Source: Flavobacteriales bacterium (GTDB lineage: Bacteria > Bacteroidota > Bacteroidia > Flavobacteriales_D > Crocinitomicaceae). From it: a stretch of DNA of 64,000 bases. The position numbers were made by a program, and so were the translations under genes. The stretch spans positions 1 to 64,000 of the forward strand of contig JABXHO010000032.1 of NCBI GenBank assembly GCA_013373595.1. The letters are read 5' to 3'. The notes beneath the pieces were generated by a model. The model did not search any database and was not told where the DNA came from. It saw only the letters and a list, made by a program, of their open reading frames with translations. Positions within the stretch are counted from its first letter, which is position 1, and each line of letters begins with the position of its first letter. Positions 32,669 to 41,622 of the stretch are shown piece by piece.

Positions 32669-33106
32669 TTAGATACCGTCCAACAATTGAATAGCGAACC
32701 CAGATGCTCCAATTCCTAAGCACAAAGGAGAAAAGAGCGTTGAATCCGCTTTAGCGAAGTCTGTATTTCTGACCTTTTTGAAGAATCCAACGTAGTTGAA
32801 ATCCCCAATTGCGCGAAGCAAAAAAATTGATGGAACGAACCACGTCCCGTAGGCAATAACCCTGTTGGGAAGCGGAATGTGAATGAAACCTCCCTTTAAC
32901 AGATACAGCAAGCCGAAAAACAATAATCCGAGGGCAACAACCAAGGTCGCAACGGGTGGAATGACTTGTTTGTTCAACGTAGCGCCTTCCTTGGTTGGAA
33001 TCACCTTGTTTATACCGAAGGTTCCTCCGAAAATCCAGTAGAAATGAAAACCGCTCAATACGGCGAAAACTAAAAACAATAAAACGGATAAAATCGAAAC
33101 AATCAT
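32669..33106 (-). CDS. DUF3995-family membrane protein
   Basis: 145 residues with four TM helices: about 2-28 (SILSVLLFLVFAVLSGFHFYWIFGG), 50-70, 80-105 and 120-143. The W-x-F-GG-x-F/W-G start, the VIPTKEG segment and the G-x-x-x-F-LLRAIGDFNYVGFFKK motif are typical of DUF3995, of unknown function. It overlaps the FAD monooxygenase stop/start by 4 bp (ATGA-type), so the two are translated together. The linkage suggests a membrane partner for, or protection from, the monooxygenase substrate. Confidence 0.85.
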   Translation of the reverse strand: MIVSILSVLLFLVFAVLSGFHFYWIFGGTFGINKVIPTKEGATLNKQVIPPVATLVVALGLLFFGLLYLLKGGFIHIPLPNRVIAYGTWFVPSIFLLRAIGDFNYVGFFKKVRNTDFAKADSTLFSPLCLGIGASGFAIQLLDGI

Positions 33107-34236
33107 GGGTGTTGAAGTTGAAAAATATAGTCGGTTTGTTTTCTATTGATTGAAGAAGGCATCCATCGAATTAGCGCATTGCGTAATCCGTTCAAAACAG
33201 GATTAGAAACGTGCGCCATTTTTCCGATTGTCCAACTGGTGTTTACAACCCGATGTGCCTTAGGAAGACGTAGCTCCTGAAACGTTTCGAAGGCCTTCTG
33301 GAGATCAAATTTCTCCATGCATTCCGCCAGAACAAGTGCATCTTCAATTGCTTGACACGCTCCCTGTCCCATGTTCGGTGTAGTGGCGTGAGCGGCATCT
33401 CCCATCAAACAACAATTTCCTTTGAACCATGTTCTTGTTGGTGCCAAATCCGATATTTCTGCGGTGTTGATCTGAGATTTCGGTGTAGCGTTTATCAATT
33501 CGTTTACCACTTCGTGGTAGTTTTCGAAATAGGAACTCAGCTGCTCAATCGAGTACTCACTCGCATTCTTTTCAAACGATTTCAATGCGTACCAATACGA
33601 TTTGTTTTTCGCTATTTGTACAAATCCGAAGCGGTCATTTTTGCCCCATGCCTCATTCAGTTCGTGCTGAAACGCTTTAGGCAAGGTAAAATCTGTGACT
33701 CCTCTCCAGCAGATTTGTTTGGCATCTCGAATCGTATTTTCTTCAAAAAGAATGTTTCGAACCACCGAGTTCAACCCGTCTGCACCAATCAACACATCCG
33801 ATTGAACAATTTCCCCATTTTCAAATGTCAATTCATAGGTCGATCCTACCTGTTCAACTTTGCTTAATCGATGACCCAAATTGACCGTTGTCGACTTCAG
33901 CTGGCTGAGAAGAATCGCTTGTAATTTTCCACGGTGAATCGCACTATTGCTCACGTGATGCTTCTTCTCGAAATAGGACAAATCTACTTTTGAAAGCGGT
34001 TTCAGATTCGCTCGGGTGATATTCATTGCGGAAATTCGGTTCCCGTTTGCTTCAATTTCTTCCCTCAGCCCTAGCTTTTCATACACTTGCATCGCATTGT
34101 TCGCTAAAATGATTCCAGCTCCTACGGCCTTAATTTCTTCTGCCTGCTCAAAAACGTATAGGTCAAATCCTTTCTGTTCGAGTGCAATAGCTGTTGTTAA
34201 TCCTCCTATTCCTCCTCCGATAATCGCAATTTTCAT
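33103..34236 (-). CDS. FAD-dependent monooxygenase (PHBH fold)
   Basis: 377 residues. The FAD-binding Rossmann motif GGGIGGL is at 7-13 with VFEQAEE closing the first beta-alpha-beta unit. The PHBH-type DG motif (VLIGADGLNSVVR) lies near 149-161 and the GD motif (CCLMGDAAHATTPNMGQGACQAIEDA) near 270-297. Such single-component enzymes hydroxylate aromatic or other lipophilic compounds; tetracycline-modifying and salicylate-type hydroxylases are relatives. It is divergent from a TetR gene, with two operator-like dyads in the 84-bp interval, so induction by its substrate is likely. The next gene encodes DUF3995. Confidence 0.92.
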   Translation of the reverse strand: MKIAIIGGGIGGLTTAIALEQKGFDLYVFEQAEEIKAVGAGIILANNAMQVYEKLGLREEIEANGNRISAMNITRANLKPLSKVDLSYFEKKHHVSNSAIHRGKLQAILLSQLKSTTVNLGHRLSKVEQVGSTYELTFENGEIVQSDVLIGADGLNSVVRNILFEENTIRDAKQICWRGVTDFTLPKAFQHELNEAWGKNDRFGFVQIAKNKSYWYALKSFEKNASEYSIEQLSSYFENYHEVVNELINATPKSQINTAEISDLAPTRTWFKGNCCLMGDAAHATTPNMGQGACQAIEDALVLAECMEKFDLQKAFETFQELRLPKAHRVVNTSWTIGKMAHVSNPVLNGLRNALIRWMPSSINRKQTDYIFQLQHP

Positions 34237-34320: not shown

Positions 34321-34944
34321 ATGAATCAAACAAAGCAGAAAATTCTCTCGCGCTCTCGCGAACTATTTAATGATCTGGGAACCACAAATGTTTCTCTCAG
34401 GAACATTGCAGATGATATGAAGATTAGTGTCGGGAACTTGCAATATCATTTCAAAAAACGCGAAGACATCATCGAAGCCTTGTACTTTCAGTTGGTGGAA
34501 GAAATGAACACCATTATGCTTGACCCTACTGCCAACCTACTTCAATCGGTGCTCGATGTTTCCTCCAACATGATTTCTAAACTCTATGAATACCGATTTT
34601 TCTTTTTGGATTTCGTTGCGTTAACACGTAAAAATCAAACAATTAAACAACACTATTCAGAATTATCGAAACAGCGCGAGTATCAATTTATGAACATGGT
34701 AGACGTGATGATTCAAAATAGTCTGTTTCGAGAAGAACGCCTAAAAAATGAATATCTCGGACTCTTCAAACGCATCGAATTGATGACGAATTTCTGGTTT
34801 TCTTCTGTGTTAATTCAAGAAGATACACTTTCAGAACATTGCCTAAGCGATTTTAAACAAATGATTCATCAAAGTATGTTTCCGTATTTAACGGTGCGTG
34901 GAAGGGAGGAGTTTGCCGCAGCATTTCCAGAAGTGATGGTTTGA
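34321..34944 (+). CDS. TetR/AcrR-family transcriptional repressor
   Basis: 207 residues. The N-terminal helix-turn-helix (about 6-50: QKILSRSRELFNDLGTTNVSLRNIADDMKISVGNLQYHFKKREDIIEAL) is a textbook TetR DNA-binding domain, followed by an all-helical ligand domain. The gene is divergent from the FAD monooxygenase operon with twin dyads between them, so it most likely represses both itself and that operon until a ligand binds. It converges with the LodB-like gene (13 bp between stops), which is probably not its target. Confidence 0.93.
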   Translation: MNQTKQKILSRSRELFNDLGTTNVSLRNIADDMKISVGNLQYHFKKREDIIEALYFQLVEEMNTIMLDPTANLLQSVLDVSSNMISKLYEYRFFFLDFVALTRKNQTIKQHYSELSKQREYQFMNMVDVMIQNSLFREERLKNEYLGLFKRIELMTNFWFSSVLIQEDTLSEHCLSDFKQMIHQSMFPYLTVRGREEFAAAFPEVMV

Positions 34945-34957
34945 TTGGCATCCAAAA

Positions 34958-36049
34958 TTAACGTCTTCGTCTCCAAAACTCACTCAACCACCGTGTTTCT
35001 CCACCATAAAAAACACTTCGATGATGTAAATATTGCTCCCACACCTGCTCCATTTGTTGAGAGTACAATCTCGCCACCTCATCCTTAAAGCTGCACTCTG
35101 CAATTAAGTGTTTCAGTTGCATTGCGCTTGCCATGGCGTTGAACATTCCTTGTGAAGATAAAGGGTCAAGACTCACAGCCGCATCTCCAATTGCTGCCCA
35201 TCGCTTTCCTGCTACCACCTGCAACTTCGTTGAGTTGGCTGCAGTGATTCCTTGGTATTCAATCTCTTCTTCTCTTCCCTGAAGAATTTTACGCATTTGT
35301 TCATTTTCTTGAGCGAAGTCGAGGAAGGAATCAACCGATTTTAGTGCACTTTTATCGAATAAGTCGGAATCCGTATGAAAGGCTACAACGCGCTTTCCAT
35401 TGGGAACAACAGCACTGTACCACCAGCCATTTGGGCCCGAAGCAATTGTACTCATCTTGTTTTCTTCAGCGTTCGGAAGTGTTACCCAACACGCGATTAA
35501 CTTGTCGACCACCTCCCGCTTTACCCCAATGCTCCGAGCAAAATGTGATTGTCGCCCACTCGCATCAATTATATAGTTAGCAGAAATCTGTAATGCTTCA
35601 CCCTCGTTCGATTTTACTTCTACGCTCCACGTCTGCTTCGTTTCATCGAATGCACTCGACTGTAGCGCTGTTCCCCACAAACATTCTACACCTCGGCTCT
35701 CCGCTGAGTTCCGAAGGAATTGTTCGAAGGCTTTTCGGTCCAAACTCTTTACATAACCATCTGGATTGCGCATGTGATCCACAACCTGCACAGTATCACT
35801 TCCCCAATAGGATTGCATTGCAAAGTTTTGCCTAAAAATCGGTGGAGATTGACTTTCCAACTCTTGTAAAAGGTCAAGTTCACTTAAAACGCGCTTCGCT
35901 GCAGGAGCGAGTGACTCTCCAATTCGCTCAATGGGTTCCAAACGCTTGTCGATAAGTGTTACGCGATGGGAACCCACCAAAGAGATGGCGGCAATACAAC
36001 CTGCTATGCCGCCACCTACAATCAGAATGTCTGTATTATTTTTTGACAA
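34958..36049 (-). CDS. LodB-like FAD-dependent oxidoreductase
   Basis: 363 residues. The FAD motif GGGIAGC is at 12-18, followed by the halogenase-like segment IERIGESLAPAAKRVLSELDLL; GPNGWWYSAVVPNG lies mid-protein and AAIGDAAVSLDPLSSQGMFNA near 285-305. This is the tryptophan-halogenase/geranylgeranyl-reductase-like flavoprotein group that includes LodB, which is needed to form the cysteine tryptophylquinone cofactor of LodA oxidases. The gene starts 6 bp after the stop of the LodA-like gene, the normal lodA-lodB order, so cofactor maturation of that protein is the inferred role. The halogenase Lys and W-x-W-x-I-P signatures are not seen. Confidence 0.82.
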   Translation of the reverse strand: MSKNNTDILIVGGGIAGCIAAISLVGSHRVTLIDKRLEPIERIGESLAPAAKRVLSELDLLQELESQSPPIFRQNFAMQSYWGSDTVQVVDHMRNPDGYVKSLDRKAFEQFLRNSAESRGVECLWGTALQSSAFDETKQTWSVEVKSNEGEALQISANYIIDASGRQSHFARSIGVKREVVDKLIACWVTLPNAEENKMSTIASGPNGWWYSAVVPNGKRVVAFHTDSDLFDKSALKSVDSFLDFAQENEQMRKILQGREEEIEYQGITAANSTKLQVVAGKRWAAIGDAAVSLDPLSSQGMFNAMASAMQLKHLIAECSFKDEVARLYSQQMEQVWEQYLHHRSVFYGGETRWLSEFWRRRR

Positions 36050-36055
36050 TGGTTC

Positions 36056-39000
36056 CTATTTCGGTATAAAACGTTGGAAACGAACCATTCGCTCTGGCAC
36101 TCCCACTTCATTGCGCGGTTGACGTGCATGCGGAAGAGTTGCAACTTTCGTCCATTTGTGTACCTCCGAAGAGAGTAAACTCACCAGTTTCTCAACCTCT
36201 GAAGTTACGTCTTCGTCTTTCACCAACTCATCTTTCACCATGTTCAGCAATTGATCACGTGTACTTTCCATGTTTTCTTGCTCATTCAGCAATCCTTCTT
36301 TGGAGAGATGATCCAATGAGAAATTCACCAATGCTTTCTCTTTTTTGTCGAGGTTTTTGTTTTCTAACATCTCGCGTAAGCGTTGTTCCGTTTGACGCAA
36401 AAGCACTTCGTTTTGCTCGTCGGTTGGCGGAACTCCAATTTGCATTTCTCGTGGGAAGAGCGGATTATCGGGCACCCCTGGTCGATGTTGAACGATCGCC
36501 AATTTATCGAAATACTTGATCATTGAATTGATCTGATTCGTTTGTGTGGGCGCCATGCCATCAAGCGGTAAGTCATCGAGCCAGAAATAGCGGTATGCAA
36601 ACGCTTCACGACGTGTTTCTTCATCCAAATTAGGATCGATCGTTTCGTGATAACGTTCTTCACTTAAAATGTTGTTGGGAACACGAGCTGGCCAGAACGT
36701 CGGCAAATAGGGATCGTACGAAGTTGTATATCCATCGCGACAACTCGCTGTGTCTGTTTGCCATGGAACCGCCATCCAACGTGTAACTCCCCCAGGAACT
36801 TGTCCACCGAGCAATGGTCCCGCAGGCATCATGAGTACATCTGCATTCATTGTTGAACCGTAATAGTTGTAATCCGTTTTGGGCTTTTTCGGTGCATGTT
36901 TCAAGCGGAAAGGCGCCGAGTACATTCCCGACGTTCGCATGGGCCACGTCATTTCGCAGCCAGGGTGGAACGCATCTGCCAAACAGAAGTCCATTGCTGC
37001 CTTCGTCAGCATATCCGGTTGTTCCGAAACGGGATAATCATCAATTTTCTTGGGTGGTTCCACATGTGGGCAACCAGTCATATCAACAAAATCAGCATCG
37101 AAATCGCCTTCAACCCATTGGTCTAGGAAGGACAATTGCAGTTTTGATAAGGTTGAATGTTGGCGCGGCGAGCCTTGAGAAGGAATTGCCACAGCATCTC
37201 CGTACAGCCACGGCCACAACTGTGGAGCAGTTGCTCCTGGTTCATCAAATCGGCGGAAATTATTCGAAATTGTTCGTCGAAGTTCTAGGTTCGCTGAAGA
37301 AGGATCGTTTAATTTTTTCACCCATTCCACACTCGTATAGTTGAACTGTCCGCCCCAGCCAAAAGCCCCGGCAAAACCAGCATTCACCCATTGTAAGTTT
37401 GTCATGCGCTCAAAAATCGGCAAGATGTCCTTTTTGAACGAAGGTCGTGCAGGGCGTTCCATCATCTTCGCTTCTACAGCAACGCTGCGCATCAAATCCC
37501 ACATGGTTCGAACCGATTTTTGCATCGGTGCATAATCGGGAGGAGCACATACTGCCCAAGCAGGCTCTACTTTTAGTTTAACACCTTCGTAGATCACTTT
37601 TGCCGTGATAGGGCCATCAGACATATCATCGTGCCACCCTTCATTGTTTGCAAATGTAATGGCTCGATCTCCGTTTACATTCTCGGATTTTCCATGTCCT
37701 CCGAGCATAATCAAGCGTCCGTGTTCATCCGAGCGCATTTCTCCGAGGTACACTTTCTTTCCCATGAACTTGCCCGTAAATGTCTTGCCTTCGGTTACAT
37801 TTGGGCTTGACAGTTTTTCTTTTCCGCCATCGATCAATAATTTTTTACGGTTTTTGACATCGATATTGCGAAGCAAGGAAGGCGGAATTTCAGGATTATT
37901 TGCGTCCGGAATATCCAAGGCAATTTGAAATTGGTACCAAGAAGCTTTCTGATTCGCTAGATGTGCATGCCACGTAATTTCGGCATTTTCCATCGTTAAT
38001 TCTTTCACCGCTCTTCCCGCAGCATTCAAGCCGTAAATGCGGAACTGTGCCGCTTGACGTTTAATTGCTCCTGTTTTATCGCGGTACGCGTAAGGATCAT
38101 CTTTTACCTCTGGTTCGTCCACAAGTGGACCGATAAAGTATTCATCTTCACTATTTCCAACACGCATAATTCCGATTGGGGGATAAATCGCTGCTTTCAC
38201 AATACAGTCGCTATCTTCATCCGTATTTTCTTTAAACGAAGGGTTTATTTCCTTCGGTTCTTGTTGGGATTGTCCATTGGCTTGATGTCGCACTTGTGCA
38301 CTTGCAGCGTATACGGTTCTTCTCGCCTCTGCAATTGAACCAAGCGGTTCATGTTGTGCCAGTGTTCGCCAAATATTGAATGACAAAGCCCTTCCGAATT
38401 CAGATTGCCCAATGTCTGTAATGTCTTGCTGAGGAAGGTGTAGTTTCGCGATGCATACGTATGGACTTTCTTCTGTGCTCCACACATCTTGCGCATCATT
38501 GAGTGGCATTGTTTCCTCATTCGTTCGTGGTTGAATTTCAAATCGGAACGTAGCACTTCCATTTCTCAAGCGGCTTTCTAGGTCTAACTTGAGGTAATTG
38601 TTATCGTCAAATGGCGCTCCTTTGTAGGTGTCGTCGGGTACTAGACGGTACTTTACAATGTTCGAATCGCCTAATTTGAACGGGAGAATTGCCCAATAGC
38701 TTGCACTCAAGCAACTTGCCTCCTCTTTCATCATTGCATTGAGGATTTCGGCAACTTTTGGGTGTTTATTGATGTACGACGGATAATCTCCATCAACCAC
38801 TCCAGCTGTCGTGAACGCACACATCTGTTGCGCATCCCGAGCAAAGAATCTATCAATATTTTGAAAGATGAAGTCGGCATTTGTTCCTTCTCCAAATAAC
38901 TTCGGCCCTTCGACACCGAACAACTTCAGTCCAACTCCCATTGTGGTATGTAAATCTGGGGATGTGGGGCCTGTATCACTTGAAAAGCGGACAACAGACT

Positions 39001-39262
39001 CGTAACGTGTGCCTGCAAAAATTCCTACTTTGTATTCCTCTGGAATATCTTCATTTACGACAAACTCGCCGTATGCGATTCCGTGTTGTTTTCTGAATAC
39101 AGATCGCTCTGCTGGTTTCTGTCCACGTTCAATTCGGGTTTTTTGTCCCATTTCCACGAACATCTCTTTTAGACGTTGTGTTACTTTTTCAGTACTTCCG
39201 TGACTATCCCAGCACTTTACGTCATTAGATGTCGCTTTTTTGCCATCATTATTTTCTTTCAT
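36056..39262 (-). CDS. Fusion of catalase-like domain and LodA-like CTQ oxidase
   Basis: 1068 residues, far longer than LodA (about 726). Residues about 20-330 form a catalase-related heme domain: RKQHGIAYGEFVV (57-69), VRFSSDTGPTSPDLHTTMGVGLKLFG (91-116), TNADFIFQNIDRFFARD (127-143) and HEPLGSIAEARRTVY (304-318), giving Arg314 and the heme-ligand candidate Tyr318. The position of the distal catalytic His seems to be Phe56. From about 350 the LodA-like part follows: IGIMRVGNSEDEYFIGP, KRQAAQFRIYG, WAVCAPPDYAP and FCLADAFHPGCEMTWP (759-774), then TRWMAVPWQTD (827-837). Cys769 and Trp834 are candidates for the CTQ crosslink. LodA enzymes oxidise amino acids and release H2O2, so the fused domain may handle that peroxide or use it. 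No signal peptide is seen. Confidence 0.82.
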   Translation of the reverse strand: MKENNDGKKATSNDVKCWDSHGSTEKVTQRLKEMFVEMGQKTRIERGQKPAERSVFRKQHGIAYGEFVVNEDIPEEYKVGIFAGTRYESVVRFSSDTGPTSPDLHTTMGVGLKLFGVEGPKLFGEGTNADFIFQNIDRFFARDAQQMCAFTTAGVVDGDYPSYINKHPKVAEILNAMMKEEASCLSASYWAILPFKLGDSNIVKYRLVPDDTYKGAPFDDNNYLKLDLESRLRNGSATFRFEIQPRTNEETMPLNDAQDVWSTEESPYVCIAKLHLPQQDITDIGQSEFGRALSFNIWRTLAQHEPLGSIAEARRTVYAASAQVRHQANGQSQQEPKEINPSFKENTDEDSDCIVKAAIYPPIGIMRVGNSEDEYFIGPLVDEPEVKDDPYAYRDKTGAIKRQAAQFRIYGLNAAGRAVKELTMENAEITWHAHLANQKASWYQFQIALDIPDANNPEIPPSLLRNIDVKNRKKLLIDGGKEKLSSPNVTEGKTFTGKFMGKKVYLGEMRSDEHGRLIMLGGHGKSENVNGDRAITFANNEGWHDDMSDGPITAKVIYEGVKLKVEPAWAVCAPPDYAPMQKSVRTMWDLMRSVAVEAKMMERPARPSFKKDILPIFERMTNLQWVNAGFAGAFGWGGQFNYTSVEWVKKLNDPSSANLELRRTISNNFRRFDEPGATAPQLWPWLYGDAVAIPSQGSPRQHSTLSKLQLSFLDQWVEGDFDADFVDMTGCPHVEPPKKIDDYPVSEQPDMLTKAAMDFCLADAFHPGCEMTWPMRTSGMYSAPFRLKHAPKKPKTDYNYYGSTMNADVLMMPAGPLLGGQVPGGVTRWMAVPWQTDTASCRDGYTTSYDPYLPTFWPARVPNNILSEERYHETIDPNLDEETRREAFAYRYFWLDDLPLDGMAPTQTNQINSMIKYFDKLAIVQHRPGVPDNPLFPREMQIGVPPTDEQNEVLLRQTEQRLREMLENKNLDKKEKALVNFSLDHLSKEGLLNEQENMESTRDQLLNMVKDELVKDEDVTSEVEKLVSLLSSEVHKWTKVATLPHARQPRNEVGVPERMVRFQRFIPK

Positions 39263-40811: not shown

Positions 40812-41540
40812 TTAGCGTCTGACAACTTTCGCTACTCCAGATTCGGAAATTTTCGGGTTCGTCACGTTTCCTTTGTAATACAGATTACTGGTTCCTGACA
40901 CATCTCCTACCAGTGTTTTCTTGCAGGTAATTTTTGCCGAACTGGCTCCTGACAAATCCACATCTGCTTCTACCGTCTCAAAGTCGTAATCCGTCAAACT
41001 ACTCGCTCCACTTAATTCAATTCTAGCTTCTTGAGTAGATCCTTCAATCTTTGCATGTGCCGCTCCTGAGAGTTCAATATCTGCCTCAGAAACCAGGATC
41101 GTCCCATCAAAATTCGCCGCTCCAGAAGATTCCAATTTGAGTGAATTGTCTTCCAAGGTATTTTTCAATGAAACGGATGACGCTCCAGAAAGATAGAATT
41201 CGTTTAGCTTCGATGTGGTGATGTGAACCTCTAATTTACCAGGAGATTGGAAGCTTACGTTTTCGTCTTGTTTGATCACCAAGGTATGAGACTTTACCTT
41301 TACCGAAATGTGCTTTTGTAAGTTTTCGGGGGCCTCTACTTCCACTTTTTCTTCAGGTCCATACGTCACATCCACCGAAAATGCGCCTGATACATCGATG
41401 CGATCAAAGTTGCGCACTTCTCTAGTTTCTGTAGTACTCTTTTTTGATGCTTTGACGGATTTTTTTCCTCCCCAGTTTGACATCGAATAAGCCACAAGAG
41501 CAATTGCTACTAATGCAAGGATAACCGGTATTTTTTTCAT
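40812..41540 (-). CDS. DUF2807 (GIN-domain) protein, copy 2
   Basis: 242 residues from the ATG at 41540 (MKKIPVILALVAIALVAYSMSNWGG). It has an N-terminal TM or uncleaved signal segment instead of the lipobox of copy 1, then the same domain: FDRIDVSGAFSVDVTYGPEEKVEVEAPENLQKHI and LSGAS/LSGAA turns (FYLSGASSVSL, IELSGASSLTDY, VDLSGASSAKI). It is clearly a paralogue of 25077-25790, differing in anchoring and in its upstream region, which lacks the TAGGGGT element. A surface or periplasmic role is inferred; function unknown. Confidence 0.87.
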   Translation of the reverse strand: MKKIPVILALVAIALVAYSMSNWGGKKSVKASKKSTTETREVRNFDRIDVSGAFSVDVTYGPEEKVEVEAPENLQKHISVKVKSHTLVIKQDENVSFQSPGKLEVHITTSKLNEFYLSGASSVSLKNTLEDNSLKLESSGAANFDGTILVSEADIELSGAAHAKIEGSTQEARIELSGASSLTDYDFETVEADVDLSGASSAKITCKKTLVGDVSGTSNLYYKGNVTNPKISESGVAKVVRR

Positions 41541-41622
41541 AATCAATCGAATAATGGATGATTTAATAGAGTGAAAGTAAGCAATTTTCCACCAATTTTG
41601 CCCTTTTTAGCTAGACCAGTTT

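Follow-up and report, generated by a model that had tools for sequence, protein, structure and literature searches.

A putative LodA-like CTQ oxidase carrying a catalase-fold domain with Phe56 at the distal histidine position, and its LodB-like partner, in a Flavobacteriales bacterium

Proteins that join a catalase-like N-terminus to LodA were tabulated in 2015 as group III (Table 3, 21 rows; Campillo-Brocal et al. 2015, PMC4417212). In the passages of that paper dealing with the group, its function was given as unknown with no protein characterised, and its activity was inferred to be other than lysine or glycine oxidation. Group III comprises a pfam00199/cd08152 N-terminus followed by LodA, a length of 963-1072 aa and an adjoining LodB-like gene, and the protein described here has the same features. 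The group III strains Flavobacterium soli DSM 19725 (L061) and Tenacibaculum ovolyticum DSM 18103 (L049) encode proteins 81% and 70% identical to it, respectively. The layout itself is not new, having been in print since 2015 as fusions of unassigned function, and the earlier note, which named no described enzyme of this layout, is overtaken by that table. Literature searches on fused LodA proteins after 2015, judged by titles and the beginnings of abstracts, showed no characterised member. The new observations are the loss of the distal histidine (Phe56), strong purifying selection on the catalase-fold domain, and a single fusion followed by losses, as favoured by the trees; neither the histidine loss nor a single fusion origin was reported for group III in those passages of PMC4417212.

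The fusion gene, its relatives and its neighbours

The window, which is the whole stretch of 64,000 nucleotides analysed, contains a single frame of 1068 residues, followed after 6 bp by a TTG-started LodB-like ORF (Table 1). The coordinates given previously were exact, and the ORF coordinates and domains bore out the description of one frame with catalase-like and LodA-like parts and a LodB-like ORF directly after it. Also judged right was the broader view that a putative LodA-like CTQ oxidase, accompanied by its LodB, carries a haem domain of the catalase fold in the same chain. No signal peptide was apparent in the fusion on inspection by eye. The C-terminal extension was matched in most Bacteroidota relatives, and the proteobacterial relatives showed no match or a partial match only.

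Table 1. Features of the fusion locus, in window coordinates
Feature	Position	Strand	Details or basis
Fusion gene, catalase-fold haem domain + LodA-like CTQ oxidase (putative)	36056..39262	-	1068 aa, ATG start
Catalase-fold domain, residues 12-338	38249..39229	-	AlphaFold2 pLDDT, VIA, hhalign
LodA-like domain, residues 352-940	36443..38209	-	LodA_N 37547-38185; LodA_C 36692-37177
C-terminal helical extension, residues 941-1068	36059..36442	-	End of the relatives' match; AlphaFold2 helices
LodB/GoxB/QhpG-like flavoprotein, putative CTQ maturase	34958..36049	-	363 aa, TTG start
Phe56, at the catalase distal His position	39095..39097	-	Alignments
His60, family His, with or without His56	39083..39085	-	By alignment, no counterpart among catalase pocket residues
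Asn135, catalase distal Asn	38858..38860	-	Alignment
Arg314-x3-Tyr318-x6-Arg325, proximal haem-ligand motif	38288..38323	-	Alignment
Asp837 (GoxA Asp678) to Cys841 (putative CTQ Cys)	36740..36754	-	82/82 aligned fused rows each
Trp857 (putative CTQ Trp)	36692..36694	-	82/82 aligned fused rows

A genome scan returned 191 relatives, and the best 80 of these were kept. The catalase-like and LodA parts occurred in the same order in 78 of the best 80, as one ORF in 76 and with an interrupted frame in L064 and L096. This shared order in other genomes refutes the sequencing or assembly join that the earlier note had raised. No point in support of joined genes or a chance frame was found, and the probability of such an artefact is negligible. 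In L083 and L084, which are 71-72% identical to the window protein, the LodA part stands alone with its CTQ residues kept; close relatives lacking the haem domain also retain LodB. One of the alignments leaves out loci L001-L015, L017 and L018 and ORFs shorter than 600 aa. One tree was built from 44 loci chosen from the earlier set and new ones, minus the duplicates L177 and L178, and another includes L028 and a distant ORF of L112 from the free-standing set. The trees favour one fusion, then several losses of the haem domain. As LodA and LodB were retained through these apparent losses, the oxidase seems to work, or at least to persist, without the domain; this pattern was counted against the second oxidation at the haem that is proposed below. 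No relative was found in the viral contigs scanned.

The LodB-like ORF, scored with two extra codons ahead of the TTG, matched best the LodB maturase model NF038171 (241 bits, below the equivalog cut-off of 400), as well as PF04820 and PF01494, and its solved relatives include CmlS and the peptidyl tryptophan dihydroxylase 7ctq. A LodB-like ORF came next in 77/80 loci, and in the other three (L078, L080 and L095) the gene reaches the contig end. For six neighbours in the window, homologues were sought in the flanks of 87 loci. DUF3995 homologues were present in five, separated from the operon by about 1.9 kb or more; in the window this distance is 1.85 kb. Two weak homologues of the 244-aa protein (40812-41546) occurred in the 87 loci, one of which lies immediately upstream of the fusion in L030, the nearest relative. 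The neighbouring peptidase, FAD monooxygenase, TetR and T9SS-tailed GH-like proteins had no homologues in these flanks. With so few homologues of the six neighbours, a conserved operon extending past lodB was rejected. Scans for promoters and terminators found no more than in shuffled sequence, and nothing stood out in an RNA structure search. Other LodA-like genes were paired with a tyrosinase (L155, L165, L176) or with a PF12902 ferritin-like protein (L156, L157, L172), and PF14518 fusions and ferritin-like neighbours of LodA-like genes are described in PMC4417212. This pairing with oxidative metalloproteins was counted in favour of a second oxidation.

Fold and haem-site residues of the N-terminal domain

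The Pfam Catalase model (PF00199) matched residues 49-151 with 20.2 bits, under the 25-bit gathering cut-off. The earlier assignment to the catalase superfamily thus failed by Pfam score and held by predicted structure and profile alignment. The AlphaFold2 block pLDDT was 79-95 over most of residues 11-320, and just 70-79 at blocks 41-60 (which contains Phe56) and 281-300. In VIA-align, the superposition on chains of the catalase fold extended to as much as residues 22-347, with Z-scores of 23.1-25.5 among the 50 matches listed. These scores include 25.5 to a Mycobacterium catalase-related protein (3e4y), 25.3 to allene oxide synthase-lipoxygenase (3dy5), and 23-24 to catalases, for which the superposition covered about residues 45-345; chanoclavine synthase (9jdc) was a further catalase-fold comparator. 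The hhalign probability was 97-98% against canonical catalases and 100% against free-standing relatives, with 32% identity between the fused and free-standing groups. On these models, the assignment of a catalase fold is firm despite the sub-threshold Pfam score. The dN/dS values for 12 pairs were 0.036-0.117 in the catalase-fold domain and 0.018-0.082 in the LodA domain, which indicates that the former is not decaying and is under strong purifying selection. Furthermore, 23 columns were near-invariant in 42 fused rows and rare in 16 free-standing rows.

The free-standing y4iL-like (cd08152) proteins are homologous to the domain and keep His56, whereas the fused forms carry Phe56. The pNGR234a protein WP_010875337, which is probably y4iL itself, shared 29% identity across 94% of the domain (tblastn 8e-33). 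In a single alignment, position 56 was Phe in 42/42 fused rows, and His in 16/16 free-standing rows (five of these being Acinetobacter loci with the same gene) and 13/13 canonical catalases. Global and local hhalign agreed in placing Phe56 at the catalase histidine. At the distal Thr-His pair of catalase-related allene oxide synthase, the fused rows have Val55-Phe56 (V in 41/42, F in 42/42). Asn135 was present in 83/83 fused rows, 15/16 free-standing rows and 13/13 canonical catalases, and Arg314, Tyr318 and Arg325 in 83/83 fused rows each; Arg53 and Arg92 were also kept in the fused proteins. The three-way alignment, which included all 13 catalases, misaligns them at columns 314, 318 and 325, and a profile alignment with the six that passed the first motif filter was used there instead; in it, the proximal R, Y and R of the domain match those of the catalases. 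The counts for the free-standing set omit L028, a broken fusion, and the second, very distant ORF of L112. His60 was found in 81/82 fused and 15/16 free-standing rows, opposite T, S or A in 12/13 catalases. It was considered as the distal histidine on its R-x2-H spacing, and was rejected because the free-standing relatives and the catalases place the histidine column at position 56.

The earlier note had suggested that a haem domain in cis might consume the H2O2 or protect the producer. A catalase or peroxidase in cis would remove the H2O2 formed at the CTQ site and shield the enzyme or the cell, with another residue standing in for the histidine. The fold and the remaining haem residues are kept, and a PF00199 search of the genome turned up nothing else of the catalase family. 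H2O2 is released by amino-acid oxidases of this type (PMC4417212), and coral catalase-related enzymes with similar pockets have kcat values with H2O2 that run from 2.5 to 303 per second (PMC5617202). However, Phe56 occupies the position of the catalase acid-base histidine in each of the 82 fused rows aligned, and plain disposal of H2O2 is therefore disfavoured. In E. coli HPII, catalase activity disappears when the distal histidine is lost. His60 is no substitute, since proteins that retain His56 have it too. In addition, 4/5 Acinetobacter loci have a separate free-standing relative with both histidines (56 and 60) after lodB. The genome of the window has a KatG-type gene, and the idea that this protein is the sole catalase of the cell was rejected on that account. 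We consider a catalase or peroxidase role unlikely.

The complete absence of the catalytic histidine is also what would be expected of a non-catalytic module, in which the domain holds a Tyr-ligated haem or merely provides a fold for stability, oligomerisation, docking, or redox or peroxide sensing. The apparent repeated loss of the domain with LodA intact and the CTQ residues of L083 and L084 point the same way. On the other hand, the whole haem site including Asn135 is kept, which a pure scaffold need not do, and the dN/dS of the domain is nearly as low as that of the oxidase domain. A non-catalytic haem domain is somewhat unlikely on this evidence, and ranks close behind the second oxidation discussed below.

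The LodA-like domain and the CTQ site

LodA_N matched residues 360-572 with 257 bits (cut-off 26.3) and LodA_C residues 696-857 with 138.7 bits (cut-off 25), which confirmed the proposed LodA identity of the remainder of the protein, and the best Foldseek matches of this part were GoxA/LodA structures. LodA (lysine epsilon-oxidase) and GoxA (glycine oxidase) share with the window protein LodA_N/LodA_C, the Asp-x3-Cys motif, the CTQ Trp and a partner flavoprotein. The window protein differs from them in its extra N-terminal haem domain, in the absence of the GoxA Tyr766/His767 loop, which is missing from the fused rows, and in falling under both NCBIfam equivalog cut-offs (LodA, 170.6 of 600 bits; GoxA, 396.9 of 750 bits). 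The true substrate of the oxidase is probably neither lysine nor glycine. Asp837, Cys841 and Trp857 align with GoxA Asp678, Cys682 and Trp696/697, and we take Cys841 and Trp857 to be the CTQ residues on the presumed identity of the GoxA CTQ Cys and Trp. The CTQ Cys presumably sits four residues after GoxA Asp678, which corresponds to Asp837, and this leads to Cys841. A shifted Cys, with the GoxA residue supposed to lie before the FHPG segment, was discarded because residue numbering puts GoxA Asp678 on Asp837. The AlphaFold2 model is poor at the CTQ site, with pLDDT below 50 at residues 762-830 and 832-860.

The haem could alternatively build or re-oxidise the quinone, as a MauG-like CTQ oxidant or as a quinohaemoprotein relay, possibly passing electrons to a nearby exported CxxCH protein. 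An exported protein with a single CxxCH was encoded near the fusion in 11/87 loci from three phyla, but its gene was found neither in the other 76/87 loci nor in the window, and the fusion is without an apparent signal peptide. Tyr-ligated haem is also a poor electron acceptor. Quinohaemoprotein amine dehydrogenase has the c-type haem motif CxxCH, which is absent from the window chain; the fusion has no CxxC, its cysteines being at positions 17, 148, 184, 270, 353, 572, 731, 760, 769 and 841. In a different system, the di-haem protein MauG participates in the biosynthesis of TTQ (PMC7876137). However, both the CTQ residues and LodB are retained in close relatives that have no haem domain, and a role in building or re-oxidising the quinone is improbable.

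Proposed role and comparison with known systems

As read from the sequences, the domains, the kept haem-site and CTQ residues, the loss of the distal histidine, the strong selection and the joint inheritance are established. The leading reading, which we hold tentatively, is that of a CTQ oxidase of the LodA-like group III, matured by LodB, with a Tyr-ligated haem b domain that would run a second, non-catalase oxidation. It is suggested by the retention of the whole haem set other than the histidine replaced by Phe56, in a domain that is not decaying. The other suggestion of the earlier note, that the peroxide might serve a further oxidation such as a peroxygenase or allene-oxide-synthase-like reaction, points in this direction. 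The CTQ domain would act as an amine or amino-acid oxidase, matured by the adjoining LodB-like flavoprotein, and the N-terminal domain would bind the haem. Rather than dismuting H2O2 like a catalase, the haem domain may take up the H2O2 from the CTQ domain, and probably also its imine, aldehyde or keto-acid product. A slower second oxidation could then proceed at the haem, with an organic substrate, not a protein histidine, aiding O-O cleavage. Against this second oxidation, formation of compound I from H2O2 should be slow without the distal histidine.

A more specific version, which we regard as doubtful, is a two-cofactor enzyme in which the protein-derived quinone yields H2O2 and a reactive imine or aldehyde, and the histidine-less haem of the same chain draws on the two for substrate-assisted peroxygenation or coupling. 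No such enzyme was found in literature searches judged by titles and the beginnings of abstracts; if real, its conservation would span about six phyla, and the fusion may be a natural self-feeding peroxygenase scaffold. The view that the protein probably detoxifies its own H2O2 thus gives way to the sharper question of what a peroxide source and a histidine-less haem do together, and Phe56 is a single residue on which the role of the haem domain can be tested.

The heme catalases (KatE/KatA type) have in common with the window domain the fold, the proximal Arg-x3-Tyr-x6-Arg and the distal Asn; the window domain, unlike them, is without the distal His and falls below the Pfam cut-off. The nearest working analogy would be VioA and VioB, where the product of an amino-acid oxidase is passed on to a haem enzyme. 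VioB is, as far as known, ferritin-like rather than catalase-like. It is described as a haem b protein that has catalase activity and dimerises the product of the amino-acid oxidase (PMC9705886). The handing of an oxidase product to a haem b protein is a likeness by analogy, with no homology to the window domain implied; VioA and VioB differ in being separate proteins, with a flavin oxidase. The coral allene oxide synthase-lipoxygenase is alike in layout, with a catalase-fold domain N-terminal to the oxidase that makes its peroxide substrate. However, the coral fusion partner is a lipoxygenase, and cAOS retains the distal T66/H67 (PMC5617202), where the window protein has Val55-Phe56.

Domain architecture, partner gene and spread of the fusion

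The LodA part of the fusion protein (see the table) scored 396.9 bits against the NCBIfam GoxA model (cut-off 750) and 170.6 bits against the LodA model (cut-off 600), and is thus a family member that is neither equivalog. Its solved-structure matches were GoxA and LodA. Asp837, Cys841 and Trp857 were present in 82/82 aligned fused rows; this Asp is described as invariant among enzymes with a tryptophylquinone (PMC7876137). Phe537 and His766, equivalent to GoxA Phe316 and His583, were present in 83/83, and the GoxA loop with Tyr766/His767 was missing from the fused rows. Group III of the LodA-like proteins, which includes catalase-domain fusions, is inferred from M. mediterranea mutants to have a substrate that is neither lysine nor glycine (PMC4417212). 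The partner flavoprotein was nearest to the LodB, GoxB and QhpG maturases (NCBIfam), all under the equivalog cut-offs, and matched the solved structures of CmlS, halogenases and the peptidyl tryptophan dihydroxylase 7ctq. A role of the haem domain in cofactor building or in electron transfer has in our judgement a slim chance.

Coordinates of the features discussed
Feature	Record	Position	Strand	Remark
Fusion ORF	window	36056-39262	-	1068 residues
Partner ORF	window	34958-36049	-	TTG start, 6 bp past fusion ORF
LodA_N	fusion protein	residues 360-572		Pfam, well above cut-off
LodA_C	fusion protein	residues 696-857		Pfam, well above cut-off
Catalase	fusion protein	residues 49-151		Pfam, slightly under cut-off
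DUF3995 and FAD monooxygenase genes	window	32669-34236
TetR regulator	window	34321-34944
Degraded fusion	L028	5947-8905
Separate Acinetobacter catalase-like gene	L100	12903-14054
Separate Acinetobacter catalase-like gene	L101	12221-13390
Separate Acinetobacter catalase-like gene	L102	12438-13601
Separate Acinetobacter catalase-like gene	L105	12244-13215
CxxCH protein	L071	6512-7912
CxxCH protein	L072	6500-7912
CxxCH protein	L087	6123-7496
CxxCH protein	L061	4722-6140
CxxCH protein	L042	12479-13939
CxxCH protein	six more Tenacibaculum loci
Tle1-like domain gene	L025	6451-7824
Dyp-type peroxidase	L026	15423-16739
Dyp-type peroxidase	L180	226-1776
Four-gene stretch	L112	5019-11014
Overlapping pair	L185	1-2532

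The fused layout described in the earlier note is real: among the best 80 of 191 relatives analysed in the genome scan, both parts were present in 78 and the LodA part alone in two (L083, Aquimarina; L084, Kordia), for which no catalase-like ORF was found in the flanking sequence examined. The closest of these 80 was a Crocinitomicaceae MAG (86% identity). The layout is already published as an architecture (PMC4417212). Fused members were found in Bacteroidota, Pseudomonadota and Myxococcota and, as single MAG contigs that are possibly misbinned, in Cyanobacteriota, Bacillota and Acidobacteriota, though fusions of Microcystis and Streptomyces are also tabulated in PMC4417212. Plasmid records held further fused forms in Azospirillum and Rhizobium (45-48.5% identity). 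The LodA_C domain is uncommon: in the phylum to which the window belongs, 10/395 genomes carry it (including the one that the window comes from), as do 10/369 of the class of Pseudoalteromonas rubra and 13/385 of the class of Agrobacterium vitis.

In the window, the gene for a DUF3995 membrane protein overlaps that of a PRK06753-like FAD monooxygenase and adjoins a TetR regulator. Across 87 loci, DUF3995 was near the fusion in five, about 1.9 kb away or more, and the FAD monooxygenase and TetR neighbours did not recur near it.

Haem domain and its distal site

The AlphaFold2 model, built on 46 aligned relatives, had a mean pLDDT of 74, with values of 79-95 in most ten-residue blocks of 11-320, 70-73 at residues 41-60 (the stretch holding Phe56), and below 50 over most of the stretch that surrounds the CTQ site (762-860). 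Residues 26-328 superposed on the Mycobacterium catalase-related protein 3e4y (VIA-align Z 25.5, rmsd 3.0, 272 residues); Z was 25.3 for the allene oxide synthase-lipoxygenase 3dy5 and 23-24 for true catalases.

The His of the catalase motif R-x2-H-A-[KR]-G, found in 13/13 catalases compared, is the distal acid-base catalyst. In a joint alignment, its column held Phe in 42/42 fused sequences, and His in 16/16 free-standing forms (without LodA) and 13/13 canonical catalases; the Arg three residues before it was kept in 71/71. Global and local profile alignments agreed on the pairing of Phe56 with the distal His, as did phmmer against the Micrococcus catalase. When the fused set was enlarged to 83 rows, Phe56 was present in 82/82 rows having a residue there (the missing row is an interrupted locus, L064), Asn135, Arg314, Tyr318 and Arg325 in 83/83, Arg53 and Arg92 in 82/82, and His60, four residues past Phe56, in 81/82. 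His60 does not look like a stand-in for the lost His, since it is also present in 15/16 free-standing forms, where His56 is kept throughout, and lies opposite T, S or A in 12/13 catalases.

Peroxide detoxification, one of the earlier suggestions, is disfavoured by the His-to-Phe replacement. That the domain is a catalase with unusual residues appears improbable; here, as throughout, the activity of the fusion protein is what we infer.

Selection was estimated by the Nei-Gojobori method in 12 usable pairs of 13 (one saturated), the values being rough because of high dS in several pairs. The dN/dS was 0.036-0.117 for the haem domain versus 0.018-0.082 for the LodA domain, the former being less constrained in 11/12 pairs. 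Conservation of the haem domain is thus almost as strict as that of the oxidase. In 23 columns, Q134, T151, D227, R231 and N296 among them, the fused rows shared a near-invariant residue that was rare in free-standing forms. A non-catalytic haem module is somewhat unlikely.

History of the fusion and free-standing forms

The LodA-part tree (72 chosen rows, quick method, support by SH-aLRT only) placed 42/42 fused rows and 10 single rows in one starred clade, and needed seven changes, six forced by starred branches. In the haem-domain tree (60 rows, with a program warning on long branches meeting), the 16 free-standing forms, drawn from plasmid records and Acinetobacter only, grouped in a single starred clade with 100/100 support that excluded every fused form; of the remaining two rows labelled standalone, one was a broken fusion (L028) and the other a very long branch. 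Together, the trees favour one fusion and about six losses, one of which would lie next to the window protein, in Kordia/Aquimarina; gain and loss cannot be told apart by counts alone, and the stars of a quick tree call for caution.

In the broken fusion, on a Sinorhizobium medicae plasmid, the ORF of the catalase-like part is intact and has Phe at position 56, and the LodA part is split across several frames. Four of five Acinetobacter loci have a separate catalase-like gene with both His residues at most 0.8 kb after lodB, so these strains hold a fused form that lacks the His together with a free one that has it.

On pNGR234a (L112), the gene order is a catalase-like gene (presumably y4iL), a hypothetical gene whose extended ORF was remotely catalase-like (E ~1e-8), a di-haem cytochrome c peroxidase and a patatin-like phospholipase. 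FdhF/YdeP family oxidoreductase genes follow free-standing catalase-family genes in four records from three genera (L115, L188, L189 and plasmid NZ_AP023281 (H30)). On a Rhodococcus koreensis plasmid (L185), a gene annotated as peroxidase has a 4-bp overlap with a catalase family gene bearing Tyr at the His60 position; the pair is possibly a dioxygenase and a hydroperoxide-using enzyme.

Neighbouring genes and comparison with known systems

An exported-looking protein (judged by its N-terminus) of 457-502 aa, with one CxxCH near the C-terminus, was encoded near the fusion operon in 11/87 loci spanning Bacteroidota, Pseudoalteromonas and a cyanobacterial MAG. The one member scanned had no Pfam or NCBIfam match. 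Weak homologues follow lodB at two non-fused LodA loci (L020, L021). The gene directly upstream of another non-fused LodA gene (Rhizobium jaguaris, L025) encodes a T6SS Tle1-like phospholipase domain, and Dyp-type peroxidase genes lie 5.6 kb (Bradyrhizobium barranii, L026) and 2.2 kb (Mycetohabitans endofungorum, L180) from non-fused LodA genes.

N-terminal PF14518 fusions are tabulated for LodA-like proteins, and tyrosinases, multicopper oxidases and PF12902 ferritin-like genes occur near other members (PMC4417212). Our scan of 19 proteins from chosen neighbours (10 without a Pfam match, 3 others matching unrelated families) placed a PF12902 gene immediately upstream of a non-fused LodA gene at three loci (L156, L157, L172) and a tyrosinase upstream of one at three others (L155, L165, L176). 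Because peroxide-making oxidases thus recur together with oxidative metalloproteins, a second oxidation by the haem domain is the best single reading, which we put forward tentatively.

In cAOS, H67 comes three residues after R64, and R360 seven after Y353 (PMC5617202); the residue spacing of the fusion haem site fits this arrangement. VioB, which is described as containing haem b, having catalase activity and dimerising the product of VioA (PMC9705886), serves as a working analogy for the fusion haem domain, not as a relative.
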